The position numbers and the translations under genes are program-made. A model generated the notes under the pieces. The model worked only from the letters and a program-made list of their open reading frames with translations. It was not told the origin of the DNA and ran no database searches. DNA of 64,000 nt from contig NZ_CP120635.1 of the NCBI RefSeq assembly GCF_021353295.2, forward strand, positions 1,468,001 through 1,532,000, read 5' to 3'. Origin of the DNA: Pseudodesulfovibrio thermohalotolerans (GTDB lineage: Bacteria; Desulfobacterota; Desulfovibrionia; Desulfovibrionales; Desulfovibrionaceae). The number at the start of each line of letters is the position of its first letter. Position 1 is the stretch's first letter. This document shows, one piece after another, positions 34,650 through 48,514 of this stretch.

Positions 34650-35186
34650 CTAGGTGTAACAGATGATGTTCTGGAATACCGCGTTATCCGTGGCCGCCTT
34701 GTATTGATGGGTCACGTCGGCGTGGAATTTGTGAGCATTCCCCGTCTCCAGTCGGTGGAGCTTGCTTCCGTATATCAAATCCACCACGCCTTGGAGAACC
34801 ACCACATGTTCCACTACGCCGAAGCGGTGGGCGGCGGAAATCTGGTGATGTCGATTGAGAAGGGTGACTTCGAACAACTCCATGCGCGTCGTCGGATCAA
34901 AGGGGAAGACTTCCCTGATGACCATGTTCGGGTCGCAGGGGATTGATACCTGCCGGAAATCCGAGCCCTCCTTGCCCTCGAAAAACGATGCGAAGGAAAT
35001 GTTCAACCCTTGGGCGATCTTTCCCAGGGTGGTGATGGTCGGTGCAGATTCCCTCCGTTCGATCTGGCCGAGCATGGCCTTTGACACGCCTGTGAGCAGG
35101 GCAGCCTTTTCCAGGCTTATTTCTCTGTCCTTCCTGCATTTTTTAATTCGATCTGCAATTGTGGACCGGATGTCGTCCGTTGACAT
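34650..35186 (-). CDS. XRE-family regulator with C-terminal cupin domain
   Basis: 178 aa. HTH_3 DNA-binding domain at about residues 10-65 (KKCRKDREISLEKAALLTGVSKAMLGQIERRESAPTITTLGKIAQGL) joined to a small cupin at about 95-175 (VVEHVVVLQGVVDLI, HKFHADVTHQYKA). This architecture is common in regulators that sense small metabolites through the cupin. AAGGAG precedes the ATG. Two nearly identical palindromes sit 12-58 nt upstream and are the likely operators. Ligand and targets are unknown. Confidence 0.88.
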   Translation of the reverse strand: MSTDDIRSTIADRIKKCRKDREISLEKAALLTGVSKAMLGQIERRESAPTITTLGKIAQGLNISFASFFEGKEGSDFRQVSIPCDPNMVIREVFPFDPTTRMELFEVTLLNRHHQISAAHRFGVVEHVVVLQGVVDLIYGSKLHRLETGNAHKFHADVTHQYKAATDNAVFQNIICYT

Positions 35187-35706: not shown

Positions 35707-36723
35707 ATGAAGACCGTTCCAGTTGAGGAAGCCGTGGGCATGGTGCTGTGCCACGACATGACCAAGATCGTCCCCGGGGAATGCAAGGGACCCGTGTTCC
35801 GCAAGGGACATATCATCGCGGAAGAGGACATTCGGACGCTGCTCGAAATCGGCAAGGAGCACATCTATGTGCTGGATATGGAGAAGGGCTGCATCCATGA
35901 GAACGAGGCCGCCCGGCGTATCGCCGAGGCCGCAGTGGGTCCGCACATCGCCTTGTCGGATGTCTCGGAGGGGCGCATCAATTTCATCGCGGAGCCCGGC
36001 CTGCTCGACGTCAATGTCGAAGCCCTGAACCGCATCAATTCCATCGAAGAGGTGGTCTTGGCCACCCTGCATACCGGCCAGCAGGTCACGGAGACCCGGC
36101 CCGTTGCCGGAACCCGCGTGGTCCCGTTGGTCGTCAGGGAGGAGAAGATTCGGCAGGTGGAGGCCATCTGCGCCGAGTATGACTACGTGGTCGGTATCCG
36201 TCCGTTTCAGCGGCTTAACGTCGGGCTGGTGACCACCGGAAGCGAGGTCTACCACGGCCGCATCAAGGACAAATTCGGGCCGGTCATCCGCAAGAAGTTT
36301 TCCCGGCTCGGTTCCGAGGTCATGGGGCAGACGCTGACCTCGGACGATCCGGCAATGACCCGTGACGCCATTCTGGCCTTCATCGCCGGAGGCGCGGAGA
36401 TGGTCGTGGTCACTGGCGGCATGTCGGTGGACCCGGACGACCAGACGCCCACGGCCATCCGCTCAACCGGGGCGGAAGTCATCACCTACGGTTCCCCGAC
36501 GTTTCCTGGCGTCATGTTTATGGTTGCGGATCTGAACGGCGTGCCCATTCTCGGACTGCCGGGCTGCGTCATGTACTACCGGGCCTCGGTTTTCGACCTG
36601 ATCGTCCCGCGCATTCTGGCCGGAGAGAAGATTGCACGCGAGGATATCGTTTCCTTGGGGCATGGCGGTTTTTGCGCGACCTGCGAGGTGTGTCGTTATC
36701 CCATCTGCCCCTTTGGCAAATAG
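35707..36723 (+). CDS. MoeA/MogA-like molybdopterin-binding protein with C-terminal Cys motif
   Basis: 338 aa. The C-terminal half contains the MoCF-binding fold: VGLVTTGSEVYHGRI near residue 177, VVTGGMSVDPDDQTPTAIRSTGAEV near residue 235 and PILGLPGCVMYYRASVFDLIVPRI near residue 280. These are the molybdopterin-binding signatures shared by MoeA and MogA. The N-terminal part (VEEAVGMVLCHDMTKIVPGECKGPVFRKGHII) resembles MoeA domain 2 but is shorter. An unusual C-terminal tail CATCEVCRYPICPFGK may bind metal. GGAG lies before the ATG used. It precedes mop by 66 nt, suggesting a dedicated cofactor insertion role. Confidence 0.85.
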   Translation: MKTVPVEEAVGMVLCHDMTKIVPGECKGPVFRKGHIIAEEDIRTLLEIGKEHIYVLDMEKGCIHENEAARRIAEAAVGPHIALSDVSEGRINFIAEPGLLDVNVEALNRINSIEEVVLATLHTGQQVTETRPVAGTRVVPLVVREEKIRQVEAICAEYDYVVGIRPFQRLNVGLVTTGSEVYHGRIKDKFGPVIRKKFSRLGSEVMGQTLTSDDPAMTRDAILAFIAGGAEMVVVTGGMSVDPDDQTPTAIRSTGAEVITYGSPTFPGVMFMVADLNGVPILGLPGCVMYYRASVFDLIVPRILAGEKIAREDIVSLGHGGFCATCEVCRYPICPFGK

Positions 36724-36728
36724 TTTAC

Positions 36729-36743
36729 GGTTCCCCGGGAACC
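36729..36743 (+). repeat. Short palindrome between moeA-like gene and mop
   Basis: GGTTCCC-C-GGGAACC, a 7-bp inverted repeat 6 nt after the first gene's stop. The one-base loop is too tight for a normal hairpin, so a DNA-binding site is more plausible; no regulator is known for it. Confidence 0.25.
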
Positions 36744-36789
36744 CAACGTATCTGCGAGACAGTGAGAACAAATTAGGAGGAAAACTGCC

Positions 36790-39507
36790 ATGATTAAACG
36801 GACGCTCCAAGTGAATGGAGTCCCCAGGATCGTCGTGTGCGAGCCTGAAGAGTCCCTGGCCAATGTGTTGCGCCAGAACTTGGGACTGACCAGCGTCAAG
36901 ATCGGTTGCGGCACGGGTCAGTGCGGCAGCTGCACCATCCTGCGGGATGACAAGCTGGTTCGGTCCTGCACCGTCAAGATGAAGCGGGTCAAGAACAACA
37001 CCAAAATCATGACCCTGGAGGGTCTCGGTACGCCCGACAACCTCCATCCCATTCAGATGGCCTGGATCGCCTTTGGCGGCGCCCAGTGCGGTTTCTGTTC
37101 CCCCGGTTTCCTGGTGTCCACCTACGCGCTGCTGACGGAGAACCCGAGCCCGACCCGCGAAGAGGTCCGCGATTGGTTCCAGGCTCACAAGAATGTCTGC
37201 CGCTGCACCGGCTACAAACCTCTGGTCGACGCCGTTATGGCCGCCGCCGAGGTCATGCGCGGCGACAAGACCATGGATGACCTGACCTTCAAGATTCCCG
37301 AAGACGGCCGCATCTGGGGTACCAAGTACCCGCGTCCGTCCGCCGTGGCCAAAGTCACGGGCACCTGGGACTTCGGCGCGGACACGGGTCTGCGTCTGCC
37401 TCCCGGAAGTCTGTACTGCGAGCTGGTCCAGGCCGAGGTTTCCCATGCCAACATCCTGTCCATCGACGTGACCGAGGCCGAGGTCGTTCCCGGTGTCTTC
37501 AAGGTCGTGACCCACAAGGACGTCAAGGGCAAGAATCGCATCACCGGCCTGATTACCTTCCCGACCAACCTCGGCGACGGCTGGGATCGTCCCATCCTGT
37601 GCGACGAGAAGGTCTTCCAGTATGGTGACGCCATCGCCATCGTCTGCGCCGACACTCCGCAGGCAGCCAAGGAAGGCGCGGCCAAGGTCAAGGTGGAACT
37701 TGAGCAACTGCCCGAGTACATGAGCGCTCCCGCCGCCATGGCCGAGGACGCCATCGAAATCCATCCCGGCACCCCCAATGTCTACTACGTGCAGAAAGAG
37801 GCCAAGGGCCCGGACACCAAACCCATCTTCGAGAACGCTGATGTGGTCGTGGAAGGCGACTACTACACCCAGCGCCAGCCGCATATGCCCATCGAGCCGG
37901 ACGTAGGGTTCGCCTACATCGGCGAAGAGGGCAAGCTGGTCATCCATTCCAAGTCCATCGGCATCCATCTGCACCTGCTGATGATCGCTCCCGGCCTGGG
38001 CGTGGAACCCGAGAACATGGTTCTGGTCCAGAATCCCACCGGCGGCACCTTCGGCTACAAGTTCTCCCCGACCATGGAAGCACTGGTCGGCGCGGCTGCA
38101 TTGGCGACCGAACGTCCCGTGTTCCTGAACTACACCTGGAAACAGCAGCAGCAGTACACCGGCAAGCGTTCCCCGCAGTTCACCACCGTGCGTCTGGCCG
38201 CCTCCAAGGACGGCAAGCTGCTCGGCATGGAGACCGATTGGACCGTGGATCACGGCCCGTATTCCGAGTTCGGCGATCTGCTGACCCTGCGTGGCGCACA
38301 GTACATCGGCGCCGGTTACGATATCCCGGCCATCCGGGGTGAAGGCCGCACCGTGTGCACCAACCACTGCTGGGGCGCGGCTTTCCGCGGTTACGGCGCT
38401 CCCGAGTCGGAGTTCCCCTCCGAGGTGTGCATGGACGAGCTGGCCGAAAAGCTGGGCATGGACCCGCTGGAGTTGCGTTACAAGAACGTCTACCGCAAGG
38501 GTTCCACCACGCCTACCGGCCAGGACCCCGAGGTCTACTCCCTGCCTGAGATGCTCGACAAGATCCGTCCCAAGTACGAGGAAGCCAAGAAGTTCGCGGC
38601 CGAAAACTCCACCGACGCCAAAAAGCTCGGCGTGGGTGTTGCCGTGGGCGTGTACGGTTCCGGTCTGGACGGTCCGGACACCGCCGAGGTGGATATCGCC
38701 CTGAACGAGGACAACACCGTCACCGTCTTCACCGCCTGGGGCGATCATGGCCAGGGCGCGGACATGGGTACCCTGGGCACCGCTCACGAGGCCCTTCGTC
38801 CCCTGAATCTGGCTCCGGAGCAGATTCACCTGACCATGGGCGACACGAGCCAGGCTCCGGCGGCCGGTCCTGCGGGCGGCAGCCGTTCCCAGGTTGTGGT
38901 CGGCCAGGCCACCAAGAACGCCTGCGAACTGCTCATTGACGCCATGAGGAAGCCCGACGGTTCCTTCCGCACCCATGAGGAAATGGTCGCCGACGGGCTG
39001 GAACTGCGTTACCACGGCAAGTGGACCGCTCCGGCCAACGATTGTGATGCGAACGGCCAGGGCAACCCGTTCTGCTGCTACATGTACGGCGTGTTCCTGT
39101 CCCTGGTTTCCGTGGACGTCGCCACCGGCAAGACCACGGTTGAGAAGATGGTCACCGTGGCCGACATCGGCGTGGTCAACAACTACCTCGTGGTGGATGG
39201 CCAGATTCACGGCGGCATTGCGCAGGGCATCGGCCTCGCGCTGTCCGAGGATTACGAGGATATCAAGAAGCACGCCAACATGGCGGGTGCCGGTATTCCG
39301 TACATCAAGGACATCCCGGACGACATGGAGATCATCTACGTGGAGACCCCGCGCCCCGATGGTCCCTTCGGCGCGTCCGGCGTCGGCGAGATGCCGTTGA
39401 CCGCCCCGCACGCGGCGATCATCAATGCTATCTACAATGCTTGCGGCGCGCGTATTCGCGAGCTGCCCGCCTACCCCGAGAAAGTGCTTGCCGCCTTCAA
39501 GGGCTAA
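36790..39507 (+). CDS. mop: Molybdenum-containing aldehyde oxidoreductase (MOP type)
   Basis: 905 aa xanthine-oxidase-family enzyme that oxidises aldehydes to carboxylic acids. D. gigas MOP, its close relative (907 aa), uses molybdopterin cytosine dinucleotide, two 2Fe-2S centres and no FAD. Cysteines C40/C45/C48/C60 (plant-ferredoxin cluster) and C100/C103/C137/C139 (second cluster) fall at exactly the D. gigas numbering. The catalytic base is in GVGEMPLT, E867 here (E869 in D. gigas). Other landmarks are GGTFGYKFSPTMEA and AFRGYGAPESEF. AGGAGG precedes the ATG. The natural acceptor is thought to be a flavodoxin or ferredoxin. The downstream genes likely serve its maturation. Confidence 0.96.
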   Translation: MIKRTLQVNGVPRIVVCEPEESLANVLRQNLGLTSVKIGCGTGQCGSCTILRDDKLVRSCTVKMKRVKNNTKIMTLEGLGTPDNLHPIQMAWIAFGGAQCGFCSPGFLVSTYALLTENPSPTREEVRDWFQAHKNVCRCTGYKPLVDAVMAAAEVMRGDKTMDDLTFKIPEDGRIWGTKYPRPSAVAKVTGTWDFGADTGLRLPPGSLYCELVQAEVSHANILSIDVTEAEVVPGVFKVVTHKDVKGKNRITGLITFPTNLGDGWDRPILCDEKVFQYGDAIAIVCADTPQAAKEGAAKVKVELEQLPEYMSAPAAMAEDAIEIHPGTPNVYYVQKEAKGPDTKPIFENADVVVEGDYYTQRQPHMPIEPDVGFAYIGEEGKLVIHSKSIGIHLHLLMIAPGLGVEPENMVLVQNPTGGTFGYKFSPTMEALVGAAALATERPVFLNYTWKQQQQYTGKRSPQFTTVRLAASKDGKLLGMETDWTVDHGPYSEFGDLLTLRGAQYIGAGYDIPAIRGEGRTVCTNHCWGAAFRGYGAPESEFPSEVCMDELAEKLGMDPLELRYKNVYRKGSTTPTGQDPEVYSLPEMLDKIRPKYEEAKKFAAENSTDAKKLGVGVAVGVYGSGLDGPDTAEVDIALNEDNTVTVFTAWGDHGQGADMGTLGTAHEALRPLNLAPEQIHLTMGDTSQAPAAGPAGGSRSQVVVGQATKNACELLIDAMRKPDGSFRTHEEMVADGLELRYHGKWTAPANDCDANGQGNPFCCYMYGVFLSLVSVDVATGKTTVEKMVTVADIGVVNNYLVVDGQIHGGIAQGIGLALSEDYEDIKKHANMAGAGIPYIKDIPDDMEIIYVETPRPDGPFGASGVGEMPLTAPHAAIINAIYNACGARIRELPAYPEKVLAAFKG

Positions 39508-39527
39508 CGGCACCAACCCGTAATAAC

Positions 39528-39560
39528 GGCGGCCCGTGCCTTGGCATGGGCCGCCTTTTT
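39528..39560 (+). terminator. Terminator/attenuator between mop and the HdrD-like gene
   Basis: Stem GGCGGCCCGTGCC/GGCATGGGCCGCC (13 pairs, one G-U) and five T residues. The next gene starts only 16 nt later with no room for its own promoter after the hairpin. Partial read-through is therefore likely, giving more mop than accessory proteins. Confidence 0.75.
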
Positions 39561-39576
39561 CCGTAAGTGGTGACCT

Positions 39577-41823
39577 ATGGAACAAGCGGAATTGAGACAA
39601 TGGGAACATCGGTGCATTCAGGAGGAGTCCCCGCAGTGCGTTGCGGCCTGCCCCCTGCATGTTGACGCCCGGGAATGCTGCACATTGCTGGCCGTGCGCC
39701 GCGTCGACAAGGCGTGGGCCGTGCTGGCCAAGACCATGCCGCTGCCGGGGGTGCTGGCCCGCATCTGCGACGGGCCGTGCAAAGCGGCCTGCCTGCGCAA
39801 GGACATCGGCGGCGCCATCGAGATGGGAGCGCTGGAGCGGTTCCTGGCAGCCTCGGCAAAACCTGCCAAGCCGCCCAGGCCCCTGCCGCGCAACGGTAAG
39901 TCCGTGGCCGTCCTCGGAGGCGGCATGACCGGCCTGTGCGCGGCCTGGGAGATCGCCCGCAAGGGGTTCGCCGTGACCGTGTATTGCGCCGCGCCGGACG
40001 TTGGCGCGGCTTTGCCCGAAGGCGTGCTCGAAGGGGAGCTTGAAGCCATGGACCGCATGGGCGTCACCCTGGAGCGGGGCGTGGAGCCCACCTCCGAACT
40101 GGTGGAAACCCAATTGGAGGAGAGGGACGCGGTCTTCGTGGACAGCGATGCCGTGAGCGATGCGGTCCTCAATTTTGGTGAGCCGGACGAAGTGACCCTC
40201 GGCACCAATCGGCTGGGGCTTTTCGCCAGCCGTCCGGGGGAGGGCTCGCCTGTCTTTCAGGCCGCCGCCGGACGCCGCGCCGCCAATTCCATCATGCGTT
40301 TTTCCCAAGGCGTGTCCATGGTCAAGAGCCGCGAGCTGGAAGGCCCGTATGATACGCGTCTCTATACCAATCGGGCCGAAATGGAGCCGGTGGAGCCGGT
40401 GGCCGTCGGCGATGGCTATGATGAGCCGCGCGCCGTGGAGGAGGCCGCCCGCTGCCTGAAGTGCGAGTGCATGGAATGCGTCAAGGGGTGCGTTTACCTC
40501 AAGCATTACAAGCAGTACCCCAAGGTCTATGTCCGTCAGGTCTACAACAACGAGGCCATTGTCCGGGGCACGCGCCAGGCCAACAAGATGATAAACTCGT
40601 GTATGCTTTGCGGGCTGTGCGATACGGTCTGTCCCGAGGATTTCGCCATGGGCGAGGTCTGCCTGGAAGCGCGGCGCAACATGATCGCCAAGGGCACCAT
40701 GCCGCCTTCGGCCCACGAGTTCGCCCTGCGCGACATGGCCTTTGCCGACGGCGACAAATGTGCCCTGGCCCGACACGCGCCGGGTGCGGATTCGAGCGAA
40801 TACGTCTTTTTCCCCGGCTGTCAATTGACCGCCACCGATCCCGGCGGGGCGGAGCGCGCCTATGCCGACCTCCGGAACCGGCTGGGCAAGGTAGGGCTCA
40901 TTCTTCGCTGTTGCGGCGCACCGGCCCGTTGGTCGGGCCGCGAGTCCCTGTTCCGTGAGTCTCTGGCCGAACTCAAGGCGGCCTGGGAGGGGCTCGGCTC
41001 TCCACGCATCATCGCGGCCTGTCCTTCCTGCATCAAGATTCTGCGCGAGGCCATGCCCGAAGCGGAGATTGTCTCCCACTGGTCCGTTTTGAGCGCCCTC
41101 GGGTTGCCCGGGACCGCCCTTCGGGACGTGGGGACCCTGGCCGTGAACGATCCCTGCGCGGCTCGCGAGGATGGTGCGCTGCGTGCCGACGTGCGAGGAC
41201 TGCTGGATGCCCTGGGCGTGGACATGGTCGAGCCGAAGTACTCCGGCGAGCTGACCCAGTGCTGCGGCTATGGCGGCTTGCTCAACGAGGTGGACCCCGC
41301 CCTGGGCGAGGCTGCCGCGAAGGCGCGTGCCGACGCCGTGGACGAGGATTACGTCACCTATTGCGCCATGTGCCGCGAAATGATCGCCCGCACCGGCAAG
41401 CGGGCCATGCATCTGTACGATCTGTTGTATCCCGGCGACGCGGAGCCGGGCGCGCGGCCTGCGCCGGGGCATTCCGAGCGGCGTGAGAACCGCGTCCGTT
41501 TGCGCGAGAAGCTTCTTCGGGAACTGTGGAGCGAGGCGGACGGCGTTTCGGCCGAGGACTTTGAAAAGATTCGGGTGGAGTGCACCGAGGAGGGCGCGGC
41601 GGCCATGGAGTCGCGGCGCATCCTGAAAAGTGACGTGCAGAAGGTCCTGCTCCAGGCGGAGCGGTCCGGCAAACATCTGGTGCACGGCGGGACCGGCCGT
41701 TTCCTGGCCTCGTTCCGTCCGGCCGTGGTGACGTATTGGGTGGAATATCAACCCGATGGCGACGGGTATCTGGTGCACAACGCCTGGTGCCACAGAATGC
41801 ATATCGAGGGAGCGCAGCCATGA
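39577..41823 (+). CDS. Flavin-domain / dicluster ferredoxin / HdrD-like CCG fusion protein
   Basis: 748 aa, a compound redox protein. Residues 1-75 resemble the GltD-type iron-sulfur domain (CVAACPLHVDARE, CDGPCKAACLR). Around 108-180 is one FAD-type Rossmann motif (VAVLGGGMTGLCAAWEIA), but the second NAD(P)-binding half typical of GltD is not evident. Around 285-365 are two 4Fe-4S motifs (CLKCECMECVKGC and CMLCGLCDTVCP). From about 405 to 610 are HdrB/D-like cysteine-rich CCG segments (FFPGCQL, RCCGAPARW, ACPSC, QCCGYGG). The C-terminal 130 residues are unassigned. I believe public annotation calls this group pyridine nucleotide-disulfide oxidoreductase/dicluster-binding protein. Probable electron carrier for the cluster. 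Confidence 0.8.
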   Translation: MEQAELRQWEHRCIQEESPQCVAACPLHVDARECCTLLAVRRVDKAWAVLAKTMPLPGVLARICDGPCKAACLRKDIGGAIEMGALERFLAASAKPAKPPRPLPRNGKSVAVLGGGMTGLCAAWEIARKGFAVTVYCAAPDVGAALPEGVLEGELEAMDRMGVTLERGVEPTSELVETQLEERDAVFVDSDAVSDAVLNFGEPDEVTLGTNRLGLFASRPGEGSPVFQAAAGRRAANSIMRFSQGVSMVKSRELEGPYDTRLYTNRAEMEPVEPVAVGDGYDEPRAVEEAARCLKCECMECVKGCVYLKHYKQYPKVYVRQVYNNEAIVRGTRQANKMINSCMLCGLCDTVCPEDFAMGEVCLEARRNMIAKGTMPPSAHEFALRDMAFADGDKCALARHAPGADSSEYVFFPGCQLTATDPGGAERAYADLRNRLGKVGLILRCCGAPARWSGRESLFRESLAELKAAWEGLGSPRIIAACPSCIKILREAMPEAEIVSHWSVLSALGLPGTALRDVGTLAVNDPCAAREDGALRADVRGLLDALGVDMVEPKYSGELTQCCGYGGLLNEVDPALGEAAAKARADAVDEDYVTYCAMCREMIARTGKRAMHLYDLLYPGDAEPGARPAPGHSERRENRVRLREKLLRELWSEADGVSAEDFEKIRVECTEEGAAAMESRRILKSDVQKVLLQAERSGKHLVHGGTGRFLASFRPAVVTYWVEYQPDGDGYLVHNAWCHRMHIEGAQP

Positions 41824-42035
41824 GCGTGATTAAGGTGCCCGGAGCCGGGGCCGACGGCTGGAAATGCGGCCATTGCGACCGGGAAATGGTCATGAAGCCG
41901 GTGGAGCTTACGTATCTCAACTCCCTGTTCAACGTGGAGCTGCCTGTCTGTCCCGAGTGCGGTTACGTGTTCATCCCCGAGGCGTTGGCCCTAGGGAAGA
42001 TGCATCAGGTGGAGCAACTGCTGGAGGACAAGTAG
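41820..42035 (+). CDS. Small two-CxxC redox/zinc-ribbon protein (DVU_1557-like)
   Basis: 71 aa. Its ATG overlaps the preceding stop (ATGA). Two cysteine pairs, KCGHCDREM near residue 16 and VCPECGYVFI near residue 45, form a rubredoxin- or zinc-ribbon-like arrangement around a hydrophobic core. From memory this matches a family named after D. vulgaris DVU_1557 (redox protein) that always lies in this cluster; I could not check it. A role as electron carrier or metal/sulfur handling protein is inference. Confidence 0.7.
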   Translation: MSVIKVPGAGADGWKCGHCDREMVMKPVELTYLNSLFNVELPVCPECGYVFIPEALALGKMHQVEQLLEDK

Positions 42036-42037
42036 CC

Positions 42038-42688
42038 GTGGCTCCTGAGCCGCGTCCGCTCTGGGAGCGCGAGGAATTGCGCGCCGTGGCCGGAGAGACC
42101 CTCCGGCCCGGCGGTTTCGAGCTGACCGACAGGGCGGCGGAGCGTATTGGCGCGGTCCCGGGGTGGCGGGTTTTGGACGTCGGTGCGGGGCTCGGAGCCA
42201 CCGTTTCCCGATTGCGTTCACGTTATGGCGTGGAGGCATGGGGCGTGGAGCCATCGGCGGCTCAACTGGGACTGGGGTGCGCCGTGCCGGGGCTTGTCCG
42301 GGCGCGCGGCGACCGGCTGCCCTTTGCACGGGAGCGGTTCGACGCCGTGTTCTGCGAGTGCGTCTTTTCCCTGTTCGACAACCGACCCGCCGGGCTGGCG
42401 GAATTTCACCGGGTGCTCAAGCCCGGCGGCTTCCTGGTTCTGTCCGACCTTTGCGCGTCTAATCCCGTCCCGGAAGATGGAGCGTCCTGCGCGGACCGCG
42501 CCGAGCCGTTGGCGGAAACCGTCCGGCTCGTTCGCGGCCATGGTTTCGCCGTCGATTTGCTTGAGGACCACTCGGACCGCCTGCGCGACCTGGCCGCCCG
42601 GCTCGCCTGGATAGGGGAGGGTGTTTCCTGCGGCTGCGGGCGGGGGGTGGGCTATTTTCTCATGATCGCGAAAAAACAAGGAGCGTAA
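42038..42688 (+). CDS. SAM-dependent methyltransferase (DVU_1556-like)
   Basis: 216 aa class I methyltransferase. SAM motif VLDVGAGLGATVSRL lies near residue 45, the acidic position in GVEPSAAQ near residue 70, and the post-motif FDAVFCECVFSLF and HRVLKPGGFLVLSDL. Its C terminus carries CGCG close to the end, unusual for the fold. I start at GTG with GGAGG upstream; the frame is open further but runs into the previous gene. The substrate is unknown. It is 2 nt after its neighbour and 2 nt before the next gene. Confidence 0.78.
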   Translation: MAPEPRPLWEREELRAVAGETLRPGGFELTDRAAERIGAVPGWRVLDVGAGLGATVSRLRSRYGVEAWGVEPSAAQLGLGCAVPGLVRARGDRLPFARERFDAVFCECVFSLFDNRPAGLAEFHRVLKPGGFLVLSDLCASNPVPEDGASCADRAEPLAETVRLVRGHGFAVDLLEDHSDRLRDLAARLAWIGEGVSCGCGRGVGYFLMIAKKQGA

Positions 42689-42690
42689 CG

Positions 42691-43143
42691 ATGCTGGACG
42701 ACGCCGGACTTCGAGTCATGGAATTGGCCGGAAAAGGATATTGTTGCAGCCAGATGCTGGTCGTCATGGCCCTGGACGAGATGGACCGCGAGGACCCGGA
42801 TCTGGTTCGGGCAGCGGGCGGGCTGTGCAACGGGCTGGGGGATTGCTCCGGGCCGTGCGGCGTGCTCACCGGCGCGACCCTTGCGCTCGGCCTGTATGGG
42901 GGCAAGGGCTCGGATATGGAGGAGCCGGTGGATACGCTGCCGGTCATGCTCGAATCCCTGCGCGACTGGTTCGTCGAGCGGACTCTGGAATACGGCGGGA
43001 TCACCTGCGGGGCGATTCTGGAAGGCGGCTGCGGCAGTCCTCACCCGACTCGCTGCGGCGGGCTGGTGGCCGAGGCCAACGCCAAGGTTCGCGAGATTCT
43101 CGTCGAGAACGGGCTGGACCCGTCCGAGGGGCGTGATCTGTAG
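42691..43143 (+). CDS. C-GCAxxG-C-C family redox protein (DVU_1555-like)
   Basis: 150 aa helical protein with many cysteines: GYCCSQ near residue 17, GLCNGLGDCSGPCGVLTGATLALGLYGG near residues 45-71, ITCGAILEGGCG near residue 107 and TRCGG. This is the C-GCAxxG-C-C family, whose members are predicted redox or metal-binding proteins of unresolved function, some of them selenoproteins elsewhere. Here all positions are cysteine. Its stop TAG overlaps the next GTG start by one base. Confidence 0.8.
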   Translation: MLDDAGLRVMELAGKGYCCSQMLVVMALDEMDREDPDLVRAAGGLCNGLGDCSGPCGVLTGATLALGLYGGKGSDMEEPVDTLPVMLESLRDWFVERTLEYGGITCGAILEGGCGSPHPTRCGGLVAEANAKVREILVENGLDPSEGRDL

Positions 43144-44513
43144 TGAGCCAAAGCCCGAGAAGCGTTTGCCCGGTCTGCCTGCGGCTCATTCCGGCCGCTC
43201 ACGAGACCGTCGGCGACGAGACGTTCCTGGTCAAGACCTGCCCCGAGCACGGGGAGTTTCGAGCGGTGGTCTGGCGCGGCGAGCCTTCCTTTGCCGCATG
43301 GGCGCGGCCCAAGGTGCCGTCGAGTCCACGGACGCCGTTCACCGAAGTGGATCGGGGCTGTCCGTTGGATTGCGGGTTGTGCGACGCACACCGCCAGCAT
43401 ACCTGCACCGCGCTTTTGGAAGTCACTTGGCGGTGCGACCTGGGCTGCCCGGTCTGTTTCGCCTCGTCCGGCAGACAGGCTCCGCCCGATCCGTCCCTGG
43501 ACGAACTGGGCCGCCTGTTCGATCGCGTGGAGCTGGCCTCGGGTTATTGCAACATACAGCTTTCGGGCGGCGAGCCGACCGTACGCGAGGACCTTGCCGA
43601 TATCATCAGGCTGGGCAAGGGCAAGGGATTTCCGTTCATCCAACTGAACACCAACGGGCTCAGGCTCGCGTGCGAGCAGGGCTACGCCGATCGGCTTGCC
43701 GAGGCCGGGCTGGATTCCGTCTTTTTGCAATTCGATGGTACGCGGGATGGCATTTACGAGAACCTGCGGGGCCGCCCCCTGCTCGACGCCAAGCTCGCGG
43801 CCTTGGACGCACTGGCCAAGGCCGGGGTGGGCGTCATCCTGGTGCCCACGTTGGTGCCGGGGGTCAATACCGACGATCTGGGCAATATCCTGCGATTGGC
43901 CATGGAGCGTTCTCCGGCCGTTCGCGGGGTTCACTTTCAGCCTGTCAGCTATTTCGGTCGCTACCCCACGCGGCCGGGCGACGAGGAACGTATCACCCTG
44001 CCGGAGATTATGCGCGGCCTTGAAACCCAGACCGGCGGGATGCTCAAGGCCGCCGACTTCAGCCCGCCGGGTTGCGAGCACGCCTTTTGTTCCTTCCACG
44101 CCAACTACGTGGTCACGGAGGAAGGCGGTTTGACCAGGCTTTCTTCAAACGGGGCGTGCGGCTGCACCCCGCGTCCGGCCTCCGAGGGGGCGGACGCGGC
44201 CAAGGCGTTCGTCAAGCGTCAGTGGGCCGCGCCGGAGAAGCGACTGCCCATGGCCTTTGACGGGGCGCAGGCCGGGGTATCATCCGACAGTGAGCCGATG
44301 GACGCCCTGGACGCTTTTATCCGGCGGGCTGCCACTCATACGCTGGCCGTGTCGGCCATGGCCTTTCAGGACTGTTGGACCCTGGACCTCGAACGGCTCA
44401 AGGGATGTTGCATTCACGAGGTGTCCCCTGACGGGCGGCTCATTCCGTTCTGCGCCTATAACCTGACCTCAATGGACGGTGAGACCCTGTACAGGGGGAA
44501 ATGTCATGAATAG
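43143..44513 (+). CDS. trsS: Radical SAM protein of the TrsS type
   Basis: 456 aa. An N-terminal cysteine-rich extension has CPVCLRLIP, KTCPEHG and CPLDCGLCDAH. The radical SAM cluster follows at about residues 98-105, CDLGCPVC (C-x3-C-x2-C), then LSGGEPTVRED (the GGE motif) and a partial TIM barrel. The C-terminal third has more cysteines (PGCEHAFCSFH, GACGC, LKGCCIH, PFCAYN) compatible with an auxiliary cluster (SPASM-like). I recall relatives annotated as radical SAM (seleno)protein TrsS; this copy uses Cys. Start is GTG overlapping the previous stop. The substrate is unknown. Confidence 0.75.
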   Translation: MSQSPRSVCPVCLRLIPAAHETVGDETFLVKTCPEHGEFRAVVWRGEPSFAAWARPKVPSSPRTPFTEVDRGCPLDCGLCDAHRQHTCTALLEVTWRCDLGCPVCFASSGRQAPPDPSLDELGRLFDRVELASGYCNIQLSGGEPTVREDLADIIRLGKGKGFPFIQLNTNGLRLACEQGYADRLAEAGLDSVFLQFDGTRDGIYENLRGRPLLDAKLAALDALAKAGVGVILVPTLVPGVNTDDLGNILRLAMERSPAVRGVHFQPVSYFGRYPTRPGDEERITLPEIMRGLETQTGGMLKAADFSPPGCEHAFCSFHANYVVTEEGGLTRLSSNGACGCTPRPASEGADAAKAFVKRQWAAPEKRLPMAFDGAQAGVSSDSEPMDALDAFIRRAATHTLAVSAMAFQDCWTLDLERLKGCCIHEVSPDGRLIPFCAYNLTSMDGETLYRGKCHE

Positions 44514-45795
44514 CTCCAATCTAGACCGTTGGCTGGCCGGACGCATGGGGCGGGACACTGTTCCGTCACGCCGCGAGCTGCGCGATTGGCAGTTGCGGCG
44601 GCTTCGGGAGATGGTGGATCACGCCAAGCTTGGCAGTCCGTTCTATGCCCGTCATCTGGCGGATTTTTGCGGCGCGGATCTGGATACTCTTGAAGCGTTT
44701 TCACGGCTGCCAGAGATAGGTCCGGAACAGTTGCGTTCCGATCCCGATGCGTTGCTGAGCGTGTCCCGCGACGACATAGAGCGGGTCGTCACCCTGTCCA
44801 GCTCCGGCACGACCGGGGAACCAAAACGCATTTTTCACACCGCCGACGATCTTGAGGCCACTACGGATTTTTTTGGTTGGGGCATGTCCAACATGGTTGG
44901 TCCGGGAGAGACCGCCCTGGTCCTCCTGCCCGGCGCGCGGCCCGGCGGAGTGGGGCGGTTGCTCGACGAGGCGTTGTCCAGGCACGGCTCGCGGGCCGTA
45001 TCCCATGGCGAAATGTCGGATGCGGATGCGGCTGTGGACCAGTGCCTGGCCGAGAAGGCCGTCTGCGTGGTCGGCTCACCGGCCCATGTGAACCTGTTCG
45101 CCCACGCCTGGACTGCGCGCGGTTTGCCCCGTGACGTGATCCGCTCAGTGTTGCTTTGCTGGGACGTGATTCCCGACGCGGTTTGTTCGAACGTGGCCGA
45201 ACGGTTGGGGTGCGGGGTATTTCGCCATTGGGGCATGATCGAGACCGGCTTGGGCGGGGCCGTGGAGTGCGCGCCGGGTTCGGGGATGCATCTGCGCGAG
45301 ACCGATGTTTTCGTCGAGATCGTGGACCCGGAAACGGGTCGGTTGCTCCCGGACGGAGAGTTCGGAGACATGGTCGTGAGCACGCCGCTGAAAAAGGGAA
45401 TGCCGCTCATTCGCTACCGCACCGGCGACGTGGGGCGCATCCTGCCTCGGGATTGCGACTGCGGCAGCCCGCTGCGCAGACTGGACCCGCTGGTTCGGCG
45501 CAGGCGCGGCGGCGTGGCGTCGGTATCCGGCGTTTTCTCTCTGTGGGAATTGAACGAGGTTATGTACGGCGTGCCGGGCGTGGCGGATTTCGCGGCCCGG
45601 TTGAACAATGGCACGCTGCATCTAGTGGTGTGCGGCGATGCTTCCTTCCAGGCGGTGTCGGACGCGCTCGGGACCCTGCCCGCCGTGGCCGGGGGGCTTG
45701 CGGCCGGGACGCTGCGGGTGGATATCGAGAACAAGCATGGCGTCGCCCCCGCCGTTTCCGGGCTGGACAAGCGGCGCATAGAGATAGGGAGTTGA
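44506..45795 (+). CDS. AMP-dependent CoA ligase, PaaK-like (DVU_1553-like)
   Basis: 429 aa adenylate-forming enzyme similar to phenylacetate-CoA ligases. The phosphate-binding loop TLSSSGTTGEPKRIF lies near residue 96, the aromatic/gate segment HWGMIETGLGGAVEC near residue 247, and PLIRYRTGDVGRI near residue 305 (the conserved YRTGD motif). It would activate a carboxylic acid to an acyl-adenylate and then acyl-CoA, possibly the acid made by the aldehyde oxidoreductase, although a maturation role is equally possible. AGGGGGA precedes the ATG, which overlaps the radical SAM gene by 8 nt. Confidence 0.8.
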   Translation: MNSSNLDRWLAGRMGRDTVPSRRELRDWQLRRLREMVDHAKLGSPFYARHLADFCGADLDTLEAFSRLPEIGPEQLRSDPDALLSVSRDDIERVVTLSSSGTTGEPKRIFHTADDLEATTDFFGWGMSNMVGPGETALVLLPGARPGGVGRLLDEALSRHGSRAVSHGEMSDADAAVDQCLAEKAVCVVGSPAHVNLFAHAWTARGLPRDVIRSVLLCWDVIPDAVCSNVAERLGCGVFRHWGMIETGLGGAVECAPGSGMHLRETDVFVEIVDPETGRLLPDGEFGDMVVSTPLKKGMPLIRYRTGDVGRILPRDCDCGSPLRRLDPLVRRRRGGVASVSGVFSLWELNEVMYGVPGVADFAARLNNGTLHLVVCGDASFQAVSDALGTLPAVAGGLAAGTLRVDIENKHGVAPAVSGLDKRRIEIGS

Positions 45796-45798
45796 GCA

Positions 45799-46791
45799 AT
45801 GAAAGCGTTTGTGCGTGAGGTGGCCGGATTGGCGCGGGCCGGAGAGCCCTTTGTCCTGGCCACGGTGGTCGAGAGTTCCGGGTCCACGCCGAGGTCCTCG
45901 GGCGCGAAGATGGCCGTGCGCCGCGATGGGGCCATCATCGGCACCGTGGGCGGCGGCCTGGCCGAGGCCCGTGCCTGCCGGTCCGCCGGAGAGATGTTGG
46001 CCGGAGGTGCTTCCGACGGTCAGGCGCGGCTGATGTTTGTGGACATGACCCAGGAACTGGCCGCCGACTCGGATATGATCTGCGGCGGCGGGCTGTCCAT
46101 GTTTCTCGAAATGGCGTCGCCGAACGGGGAGTGCGCCCGCGTTTATGCCGAGCTGGACGACATGCTGCGCAGGGGCGACGCCGCGACGCTCACGACCTGC
46201 GTTCAGGGCGGTGAAACGCCGCTTGTCACCGGGCATGACATCGTCACCGGCAGACCGGACGGCGAGATGCCGGTTTTCAGCCGCGACGGCAATCCCATGG
46301 TCCTGGCCGAGCCGTTCATTCCGCCCGCGCCGTTGTATATTTTCGGAGCCGGGCACGTCTCCCGGTTCACCGCGCGGGTGGCGGCCATGGTCGGGTTTCG
46401 CACCGTGGTGCTGGACGACCGGGAAGAGTACGCCAATCGGGAACGCTTTCCCGAGGCCGACGAGGTGGTGGTCCTCCCGTCTTTCGCCGGGTGCTGCGAC
46501 GCGCTCAGGGAAGACCCCGAGGCGTTCGTGGTCATCGTTACCCGGGGGCATATGCACGACCGTAACGTTCTGGCCGAGGCCCTGCGGACAAGGGCGCGCT
46601 ATGTGGGCATGATCGGCAGCTCCACCAAGCGCGAAAAGATATATGCTTCCCTGCTGGCCGATGGTTTCACCCAGGCGGAGATCGACCGCTGCTATAGCCC
46701 CATCGGGCTGCCCATCGGCGGACAGACCCCGGAGGAGATCGCGGTCAGCATCGTGGGCGAGCTTATTCAGGTCCGGGCGGGTAAGGCATGA
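45799..46791 (+). CDS. XdhC/CoxI-family molybdoenzyme maturation factor
   Basis: 330 aa. The N-terminal XdhC_CoxI domain has VVESSGSTPRSSGAKMAVRRDG and TVGGGLAEARA; the C-terminal Rossmann domain has YIFGAGHVSRFTARVAAMVGF near residue 180. XdhC proteins bind the molybdenum cofactor, promote its sulfuration and hand it to xanthine-oxidase-family enzymes, so its target is most probably the mop product. It overlaps the next gene by 4 nt. Confidence 0.92.
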   Translation: MKAFVREVAGLARAGEPFVLATVVESSGSTPRSSGAKMAVRRDGAIIGTVGGGLAEARACRSAGEMLAGGASDGQARLMFVDMTQELAADSDMICGGGLSMFLEMASPNGECARVYAELDDMLRRGDAATLTTCVQGGETPLVTGHDIVTGRPDGEMPVFSRDGNPMVLAEPFIPPAPLYIFGAGHVSRFTARVAAMVGFRTVVLDDREEYANRERFPEADEVVVLPSFAGCCDALREDPEAFVVIVTRGHMHDRNVLAEALRTRARYVGMIGSSTKREKIYASLLADGFTQAEIDRCYSPIGLPIGGQTPEEIAVSIVGELIQVRAGKA

Positions 46792-47915
46792 TGAACGGGC
46801 TTGCCGCGATCATTCCGGCGGCGGGACTGTCCTCTCGCATGGGCAGTTTCAAGCCGCTGCTTCCCCTTGGAGACGGTACGGTCCTTTCGCGTTGCGTTGC
46901 ACTTTTCAGGGAGTGCGGCGTGGAGCGGATCGTGACGGTTACGGGCAAGCGGGCCGACGAGGTGGCGGCCTGTGCCGTGGAGGCCGGGGCCGAGGCCGTC
47001 TACAACCCGTCATTCGAACAGGGCATGTATTCCTCGGTCCTGACCGGCGTGCGGACATTGGGGGGCGATGTGCGGGCATTTTTCATGCTTCCGGCGGACA
47101 TTCCCCTGGTCCGGCCCGAGACGGTTCGGCGGCTTGTCGACGAATTCGAGCGGACGCGGCCGTCCGTCTTGTATCCACGATTCGCCGGAGAACGAGGCCA
47201 TCCGCCGCTCATTGCGGCCGAAATCGTTCCGGCCATTCTGAATCATGACGGCACCGGCGGGCTTCGGGCCGTGCTCGACGGGGTGGAGGCGGACGCGCTG
47301 GACCTGGACGTGCCCGATTTCGGCATAGTCCATGACCTGGATCGTCCCGAGGATTACGAGTTGGCCCTGGCAGTGGCCGGGATACGCTATCCGCTTGAGG
47401 ATGAGTGCGGCGAGTTGTTCCGGGAGTACGGGGTTTCCGACCATATCGTCGGACATTGCCGGGCCGTGGCCAAGGTGGCGACGGCCCTGTGCGGTCGGCT
47501 GAACGAGCGGCCGGGCGCTCCCCGGCTGGACCCCGGCCTTGTCCTGGGCGCGGCCCTTACCCACGACATCGGCAAGGGGACCAAGCGGCACGAGGCCGCT
47601 GGGGCGGAGCTGTTGCGCGCTCATGGATTTTCGGACGCCGCCGACATCGTGGCCGCCCACTTCGATCTGACCCTGTCCGACGACGCCCCCGTCACTGAGC
47701 GGGAGGTCGTTTTCCTGGCCGATAAGCTGGTTCGTTGTCACGGGCCGGTTCCGCTGGACAGGCGATATATGGAGAAGGTGGAGATGTATCGCCACGAGGT
47801 GGGGGCGGAAGAGGCCATATTGGGACGTCTTGAACGAGCCCGGGCGGTCATGACCCGTTTCGACCGGGAGTTGAACGATTCTTCCGAACGCATAGCCCGT
47901 GAGGCCCTGTCGTGA
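46788..47915 (+). CDS. MobA/MocA-like nucleotidyltransferase fused to an HD domain (DVU_1551-like)
   Basis: 375 aa with two domains. Residues 1-200 are a GT-A-fold NTP transferase with IIPAAGLSSRMGSFKPLLPLGDGT (the MobA/MocA G-x-S-x-R-M-G-x-x-K signature) and MLPADIPLV. Residues 215-350 form an HD phosphohydrolase domain with VGHCRAVAKVA and GAALTHDIGKGTKRHEAAGAELL. MocA-type enzymes attach CMP to molybdopterin, and MOP-type enzymes need molybdopterin cytosine dinucleotide, so CTP-dependent cofactor synthesis is a reasonable role. The HD partner's substrate is unknown. Start overlaps xdhC and the end overlaps the phosphatase gene. Confidence 0.85.
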   Translation: MMNGLAAIIPAAGLSSRMGSFKPLLPLGDGTVLSRCVALFRECGVERIVTVTGKRADEVAACAVEAGAEAVYNPSFEQGMYSSVLTGVRTLGGDVRAFFMLPADIPLVRPETVRRLVDEFERTRPSVLYPRFAGERGHPPLIAAEIVPAILNHDGTGGLRAVLDGVEADALDLDVPDFGIVHDLDRPEDYELALAVAGIRYPLEDECGELFREYGVSDHIVGHCRAVAKVATALCGRLNERPGAPRLDPGLVLGAALTHDIGKGTKRHEAAGAELLRAHGFSDAADIVAAHFDLTLSDDAPVTEREVVFLADKLVRCHGPVPLDRRYMEKVEMYRHEVGAEEAILGRLERARAVMTRFDRELNDSSERIAREALS

Positions 47916-48514
47916 TCGTGCTCCTGCGCCATTGCCGGCCGGCGGGCGGCGATGGGCTGTGTGTCGGCAGGACGCCCCTGCAACTCTCTGCGGATGGCGA
48001 GCTTCAGGCCCGTGCGCTTGCCGAAGAGCTGGGGGCGGTTCCGTTCGCGCGGCTGTGCTCAAGCCCCGCCATCCGGGCGCGGCACACTCTCGGGCCGCTG
48101 GCGGAGCGGCTTGGAATGCCCGTGGAAATATTGCCAGAGCTGGACGAAATCGACATGGGCGCGTGGGACGGTTTGGCCTTTGCCGATATTCGTGAACGGT
48201 TCCCGGAGGAATACGCGGCGCGGGGCCGTCGATTTGGCTGTTTTCGCGCCCCTGGCGGGGAGAACTTCGAGGATGTGGCCGACCGGGTCATGGTTGCCTT
48301 GGAGCAGCTGGCCGAAGGAAAGCTTCCCGTGCTGGTGGCGACCCATGCGGGCGTGATCCGGACGGCGCTTTGCCGGGTGACAGGCCATCCTCTGGACGAC
48401 TTGTTCCGGTTCAAACCGGGATACGCCCGATGTACGGTCTTGCGCCGGGAAGGGAACGGCCTCGCACTTGAGGCGGACGACCTGGATGCCGGGTCGATAC
48501 GCGCCCTTTTTTGA
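47912..48514 (+). CDS. Histidine phosphatase family protein
   Basis: 200 aa phosphoglycerate-mutase-like phosphatase. The catalytic motif LLRHCRP is at residues 4-10 (RH with His7), a second conserved Arg pair lies in SSPAIRARHT near residue 50, and ATHAGVIRTALCR near residue 145 has the second His. CobC (alpha-ribazole phosphatase) is similar in size, but this position at the end of a molybdopterin cluster suggests a nucleotide or cofactor phosphate substrate. GTG start overlaps the preceding TGA (GTGA). Confidence 0.82.
   Translation: MIVLLRHCRPAGGDGLCVGRTPLQLSADGELQARALAEELGAVPFARLCSSPAIRARHTLGPLAERLGMPVEILPELDEIDMGAWDGLAFADIRERFPEEYAARGRRFGCFRAPGGENFEDVADRVMVALEQLAEGKLPVLVATHAGVIRTALCRVTGHPLDDLFRFKPGYARCTVLRREGNGLALEADDLDAGSIRALF

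Follow-up and report, generated by a model that had tools for sequence, protein, structure and literature searches.

The aldehyde oxidoreductase of Desulfovibrio gigas is a standard example of its family, that of xanthine oxidase, and the Desulfovibrio enzymes of this type, called MOP (PDB 1sij and 1dgj), are known as single enzymes with flavodoxin as putative partner; a personal review tells of the search for the 'missing' flavo-domain of the D. gigas protein (PMC10223205). Here we describe a locus of Pseudodesulfovibrio thermohalotolerans, within a window of 64,000 nucleotides (contig NZ_CP120635.1, positions 1,468,001 to 1,532,000; coordinates below are those of the window), in which a MOP of the same length, domains and cluster cysteines heads a seven-gene unit. 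The protein encoded next to it, DIC, resembles the electron-bifurcating subunit of NfnABC and StnABC (PDB 9bov, 8oh5 and 9n5u) in one part and the CCG-domain proteins HdrB, LutA and EtfD (PDB 5odc, 8rvu, 9a6l and 9ojn) in another, and it differs from both groups in uniting the two parts and in lacking the NAD(P)H-binding insert. A further member, TrsS, has the fold of the tetraether lipid synthase Tes, or GDGT-MAS (PDB 7tol and 7tom). MOP, DIC, ZnR, MT, CGA, TrsS and LIG constitute a core that is inherited as a unit with its order kept, and the unit connects a bond-forming class of radical enzyme, familiar from archaeal lipids, with a pathway that is widespread in bacteria. DIC addresses the question of the partner as a specific candidate electron acceptor of MOP, its input end altered exactly in the MOP lineage, and this we regard as the most useful new point.

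36790 to 39507, + strand: MOP, molybdopterin aldehyde oxidoreductase (NF045668, Pfam domains, PDB matches)
39528 to 39555, + strand: strong terminator-like hairpin between MOP and DIC (12 pairs, 10 of them G-C, followed by TTTTT)
39577 to 41823, + strand: DIC, Nfn/CCG-type protein (NF045663, conserved cysteines, AlphaFold2 model, fold matches)
41820 to 42035, + strand: ZnR, 71-residue zinc-ribbon protein with two CxxC motifs (NF045645, PF24292)
42038 to 42688, + strand: MT, S-adenosylmethionine (SAM) methyltransferase of the DVU_1556 family (NF045667)
42691 to 43143, + strand: CGA, redox protein of the C-GCAxxG-C-C family (NF045669, PF09719)
43143 to 44513, + strand: TrsS, radical SAM enzyme with the tetraether-lipid-synthase fold (NF045646)
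44479 (GTG) or 44506 (ATG) to 45795, + strand: LIG, PaaK-like adenylate-forming ligase (NF045666, PDB matches to PaaK, motif conservation)

These genes belong to a run of eleven open reading frames (ORFs) on the + strand (35707 to 48514), which an earlier note, made from the sequence alone, had described as packed. Families were assigned with Pfam and NCBIfam at curated score cut-offs. All eleven genes are real, each with one terminal stop and a Pfam or NCBIfam match, and nine exceed a curated NCBIfam cut-off. The last nine are tightly packed, with successive gaps of -4, 2, 2, -1, -35, 3, -4 and -4 nt (the TrsS-LIG gap becomes -8 if LIG starts at the ATG at 44506). MOP lies outside this packing, 66 nt 3' of a MoeA-like gene and 69 nt 5' of DIC. 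Five of the nine NCBIfam names derive from locus tags of D. vulgaris in the range DVU_1551 to DVU_1557. All seven core families have already been named by NCBI (NF045645, NF045646, NF045663 and NF045666 to NF045669, within the TrsS-related set NF045645, NF045646 and NF045663 to NF045669) and were therefore recognised before the present analysis, from which the MOP-less form of the core and the loss of the NAD(P)H insert emerged. A literature search at the level of titles found none on the core; DVU1559 is listed in tables of PMC10920352 and PMC11784015.

Conservation of the unit was assessed in 99 loci (98 after removal of a duplicate), 19 from genomes of the window's phylum and 80 named loci, the latter being the top 80 from a ranking of at least 580 relatives by their resemblance to one MOP-less TrsS; the set is non-random, includes many short contigs, and carries taxon labels mostly from metagenome-assembled genomes (MAGs). 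The order MOP-DIC-ZnR-MT-CGA-TrsS-LIG is shared by loci from at least seven phyla (Thermodesulfobacteriota, Bacillota, Chloroflexota, Pseudomonadota, Myxococcota, Acidobacteriota and Synergistota). A nucleoside triphosphate (NTP) transferase in some cases interrupts it before or after TrsS; no MT was detected in the two Spirochaetota loci. Where both members of a pair are present in the 98 loci, they are same-strand neighbours in 59/63 cases for MOP-DIC, 73/79 for DIC-ZnR, 68/74 for ZnR-MT, 56/69 for MT-CGA, 56/77 for CGA-TrsS and 74/87 for TrsS-LIG, and of the 71 loci whose sequence extends 6.5 kb or more beyond TrsS on its upstream side, 57 contain MOP or a fragment of it.

The genes also share their distribution across genomes. 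Among 168 genomes sampled from the window's phylum, each with a completeness of 90% or more, MT (at E<=1e-36), TrsS and LIG mark the same 20: LIG exceeds its cut-off in all 20, and TrsS in 19 and, in two pieces, in G036. MOP exceeds its cut-off in 13 and is present in G092 as two contig-end pieces; DIC and ZnR are each over their cut-offs in these same 14 genomes, and CGA in 16, which adds G036 and G096. The other six of the 20 genomes carry MT, TrsS and LIG without MOP (G036, G070, G096, G109, G115 and G132). The core of these six is reduced, with a short DIC in four, a C-terminal piece of DIC in two, and a weak match to ZnR at best. In four of them (G036, G070, G096 and G115) the MOP model finds nothing even at E<=1e-3, where it picks up xanthine-oxidase-family genes in Escherichia coli and others, so these genomes have no detectable enzyme of that family. 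In a second sample of 217 genomes from the window's order (at least 95% complete), 151 hold MOP and TrsS, seven MOP only, four TrsS only and 55 neither (Fisher p 1e-38, with relatedness ignored). One of the TrsS-only genomes, G169, has a Tes-like score. Five of the seven MOP-only genomes were inspected, leaving out G340 and G376: G219, G268 and G279 carry every gene of the cassette, TrsS being split by inserts, the locus of G336 reaches a contig edge, and G170 (L141) has MOP alone within 20 kb and no TrsS at E<=1e-100 genome-wide. That the genes act together, as the earlier note proposed, is upheld by the order kept across phyla and by the matching genome sets, and the same two observations contradict a chance packing of unrelated genes under a common regulator, which is hardly credible even though overlapping genes are frequent in compact genomes.

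A quick maximum-likelihood analysis of 107 TrsS and Tes-like sequences sets the eight Tes-like ones apart (support 99) and places all 64 MOP-linked sequences in one group of 85 (99). Outside this group lie two sequences from archaeal MAGs, a mostly MOP-less group of 11 (90), and the TrsS of L079. Five sequences within the group of 85 are MOP-less (L076, L094, L099, L119 and L135), and no other core gene was found beside TrsS in these loci, the contig of L119 being short. The simplest reading of this topology is a single recruitment of MOP to a core that already existed, and the six-gene core appears, from these sequence comparisons, to be older than its partnership with MOP. In a LIG tree, 12 MOP-less sequences form one clade (97), which lends weak support on this point; the tree is poorly rooted, with four of the six outgroup sequences on very long branches, and these may be wrong-frame ORFs. 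A conserved substitute partner of the MOP-less cores was sought and not found among the neighbours scanned, which differ from locus to locus: a NuoF-type protein and a FAS1-type dehydratase in L059, a TRAP transporter and a flavoprotein in L060, RACo in L060 and L041, 2-hydroxyacyl-CoA-dehydratase-like proteins in L039, UROD in L118, and CobW-type GTPases adjoining TrsS in L119 and L135, the last also with XdhC, MocA-like and MoeA-like genes.

DIC (988 bits; cut-off 530) consists of an NfnB/StnC-like N-terminal part, a 4Fe-4S dicluster domain, a CCG domain and a C-terminal domain of about 100 residues, and its AlphaFold2 model has a pLDDT (predicted local distance difference test) of 93.7. The CCG domain carries two cysteine motifs, in agreement with the HdrB/HdrD motif pattern, and has an HdrB-type fold. 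The N-terminal Fe-S cysteines are conserved in 65-66 of 66 DICs. By contrast, the NAD(P)H-binding Rossmann insert of the NfnB/GltD type is absent from the window protein; two MOP-less DICs keep it, and it is missing from all 64 others, in which the Asp of the FAD site is lost as well (64/64). DICs encoded beside MOP have an NfnB-like input domain from which the part that binds NAD(P)H is missing, and on this pattern DIC seems to have swapped NAD(P)H for MOP as its electron source.

MOP itself (1667.9 bits; cut-off 1100) has two [2Fe-2S] domains and the Mo domains in Pfam and no FAD domain. Its cysteines at 40, 45, 48, 60, 100, 103, 137 and 139 we take to be the ligands of the two [2Fe-2S] clusters. 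Its best PDB matches are 1sij and 1dgj (1393 and 1480 bits), and we infer that it would oxidise an aldehyde. Our preferred reading, held tentatively and at somewhat less than even chances, is of a single redox-fed module for biosynthesis, to which a layer for molybdenum maturation is attached and in which electrons would run from MOP through DIC to TrsS. Electrons from aldehyde oxidation would pass from the [2Fe-2S] clusters of MOP into the Fe-S N-terminus of DIC, where MOP would replace NAD(P)H as the source, and would run via the dicluster domain to the CCG domain and onward, possibly by way of thiol/disulfide chemistry that involves CGA, ZnR or a small disulfide. DIC would supply the low-potential electrons needed by TrsS. 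LIG would activate an acid and MT would methylate it, and TrsS could form a C-C or C-S bond on this substrate; the product might be a coenzyme that contains sulfur, or a small protein that carries a modification. Weighing against this electron route, the CCG domain fits the LutA and EtfD folds better than that of HdrB, which lowers its odds. A more specific version, which we consider distinctly unlikely as a whole, is that MOP and DIC form an aldehyde-oxidising input that replaces NAD(P)H for a widespread MOP-independent pathway of TrsS, an ArsM-like methyltransferase and a ligase, leading to a sulfur coenzyme or a protein modification, and that DIC, not flavodoxin, is the physiological acceptor of MOP. 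The own electron carrier that the earlier note envisaged fits DIC.

The best placed of the rival explanations, still on the unlikely side, is that the core is a maturation or repair system that acts in catalytic amounts, modifying or re-reducing the active site of MOP (for example the pterin dithiolene) or modifying one of its residues. MOP seldom occurs without the core, DIC could reduce a disulfide, and, according to PMC3877041, the activity of the D. gigas enzyme is tied to the oxidation state of the dithiolene, inactive samples requiring dithionite and sulfide. The hairpin behind MOP would likewise suit accessory enzymes present at low levels, and its position ahead of the packed block suggests that more MOP is made than core enzymes. 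It is a recurrent feature and not a general one: a simple finder detected a similar hairpin in 13 of 58 other MOP-DIC gaps and none in 45, against a background of 0.01 per mononucleotide shuffle. Against maturation, the occurrence of MT, TrsS and LIG in MOP-less genomes argues that the core is not a MOP maturase by origin, and the TrsS tree, with its MOP-less branches outside the MOP group, agrees; native D. gigas crystal structures have a cytidine-dinucleotide pterin with oxo and hydroxo ligands (PMC3877041); and second copies of MOP occur without an adjoining core. One such copy lies in the window's own genome (L003, 2528000 to 2547999; 51% identical to the window MOP) and another in G303 (L143), each with a MoeA-like gene as the sole neighbour from the system. 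The MoeA-like gene in L003 is 80% identical to that of the window, and an IS110-type transposase and a LysR regulator lie nearby. The earlier note had read the operon as a dedicated molybdenum-hydroxylase system and named two findings that would tell against it. Each is seen in part, the accessory genes occurring without MOP in six of 20 genomes (four of the six with no MOP-model match) and MOP occurring apart from the accessory set at L003, L143 and L141; in that form the reading lacks support.

A catabolic aldehyde-to-acyl-CoA route, also raised in the earlier note, would have MOP make an acid, LIG activate it, DIC remove the electrons, and TrsS and MT act on an upstream substrate that yields the aldehyde. 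LIG (426.5 bits; cut-off 300) is PaaK-like, MOP has been assayed on benzaldehyde (PMC3877041), the D. vulgaris MOP stands under ethanol metabolism in a proteome table of PMC10920352, and all the genes lie within one cassette. Six clusters of recurrent extra genes at the loci were scanned for family. Among them is a sigma-54-type activator with GAF/PAS domains in 10 loci (L067, L071, L077, L078, L080, L084, L085, L089, L112 and L116), as might hold for a substrate-sensing regulator; by contrast, an ABC ATPase (19 loci), an SBP_bac_11 binding protein (six) and a class-V aminotransferase (nine) suit molybdate uptake and sulfur transfer better than a catabolic role. The ligase is also present in all six MOP-less genomes, and we judge the route improbable.

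TrsS (688.7 bits; cut-off 490) is closest, among named proteins, to those of Desulfovibrio sp. Fe33 and Pseudodesulfovibrio. Its model was compared with structures using VIA-align and its metal ligands were set against those named in PMC9433317 and the PDB alignment, the cysteines of the C-terminal cluster being assigned from conservation. All four metal sites of Tes are retained: the ligands of the rubredoxin site, of the N- and C-terminal auxiliary clusters and of the radical SAM cluster, and the labile Met (M406), are invariant in 73/73 sequences. This resemblance would accord with TrsS acting in bacteria as a coupling enzyme of the tetraether type, a role proposed for bacterial homologues of Tes, with LIG, MT and MOP processing fatty aldehydes and acids. 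We consider such a lipid pathway very improbable: TrsS reaches only 339.9 bits with the Tes model NF045702, whose cut-off is 450; 98 residues of 7tom find no match, and the equivalent region of TrsS is variable, with pLDDT below 50 at 370-380; the Tes-like proteins group separately in the tree; and the operon context is not lipid-related, no core gene exceeding the cut-off of a lipid-synthesis family in Pfam or NCBIfam.

Position 311 of TrsS, a cysteine in the window, was considered as an essential Cys/Sec residue and rejected, being Cys in only 45 of 73 sequences. In the MOP-less cassette L079 (9896 to 11308), alone among the split genes that were read, an in-frame TGA aligns with C311 and is a candidate selenocysteine codon; selenoprotein TrsS is credited to Haft & Tolstoy 2025 in the review PMC13188914. 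Several TrsS genes are irregular in other ways: those of G268, G279 and G219 (L138, L139 and L140) are broken or lengthened by variable inserts between conserved blocks, L074 (1988 to 4689, a Clostridiales MAG) has two overlapping tandem TrsS-like ORFs, and TrsS of L076 (9968 to 12145) lies inside an ORF of 725 residues.

ZnR, MT and CGA all exceed their cut-offs. ZnR scores 100.8 bits (cut-off 60, DVU_1557 family); of its 82 homologues 79 terminate in Lys and 67 in LEDK, with one contig counted twice, and Y32, E65, E69 and K71 are conserved at 1.00 among 75 aligned sequences. To find such a conserved C-terminus beside an adenylate-forming ligase is suggestive. MT (202.8 bits; cut-off 155) has an invariant C108, and C151 is conserved in at least 90% (20 sequences). 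Its next-best named families include arsenite methyltransferases, and it remains under the ArsM cut-offs (38.7 vs 263 for PRK11873 and 54.6 vs 240 for NF040539). C108 and C151 may correspond to the paired substrate-site cysteines of ArsM. CGA scores 166.3 bits (cut-off 103).

Around the core is a looser molybdenum layer of four genes, which in our preferred reading would serve only in building MOP:

35707 to 36723, + strand: MoeA-like MoCF_biosynth protein (Pfam PF00994)
45799 to 46791, + strand: XdhC-family maturation factor (NF045664)
46788 to 47915, + strand: MocA-like NTP transferase with a fused HD domain (NF045665, PF12804 and PF01966)
47912 to 48514, + strand: histidine phosphatase, branch 1 (PF00300)

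The phosphatase was assigned by Pfam only and the XdhC gene by NCBIfam only, and no NCBIfam model exceeds its cut-off for the MoeA-like protein. The latter ends, outside its Pfam domain, in a C-x2-C-x2-C-x4-C tail (36600 to 36720) that is present, as judged by eye, in 28 of 28 locus homologues and is a probable metal site. The XdhC-type protein scores 401.7 bits (cut-off 350) and the NTP transferase 435 (cut-off 315). The former is over its cut-off in 28 of the 168 phylum genomes, 23 of them without TrsS; these XdhC-type genome counts are lower bounds, as the six-frame search seems to miss split matches, and it gave no XdhC-type match at E<=1e-85 in the window's own genome even though the window gene reaches its score in two stretches. 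The NTP transferase is over its cut-off in 14 of the 168, including four without TrsS (G037, G079, G118 and G141), and has no match at E<=1e-70 in four MOP genomes (G092, G116, G148 and G161). The XdhC, MocA-like and MoeA-like genes were accordingly rejected as core members, the XdhC- and MocA-type distributions not following that of the core. The need for cofactor sulfuration, assumed in the earlier note, is also doubtful, because the D. gigas enzyme works with an oxo ligand in place of the sulfido one (PMC3877041). Selenium-dependent molybdenum hydroxylase loci (YqeB/YqeC/YgfJ) likewise pair a xanthine-oxidase-family enzyme with helpers of the XdhC and MocA types; they differ from the window system in that no TrsS-type core figures in the available part of PMC2276186. 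A match to the corresponding enzyme model, TIGR03311, reaches 428.4 bits, under its cut-off of 830.45.

Upstream of the operon lies a divergent gene for an XRE-type helix-turn-helix regulator (34650 to 35186, - strand), of which tblastn at E<=1e-6 detected no homologue among the loci fetched. The - strand opposite MOP and DIC holds an open frame of 1779 residues (36463 to 41802), which is probably a by-product of high G+C codon usage.

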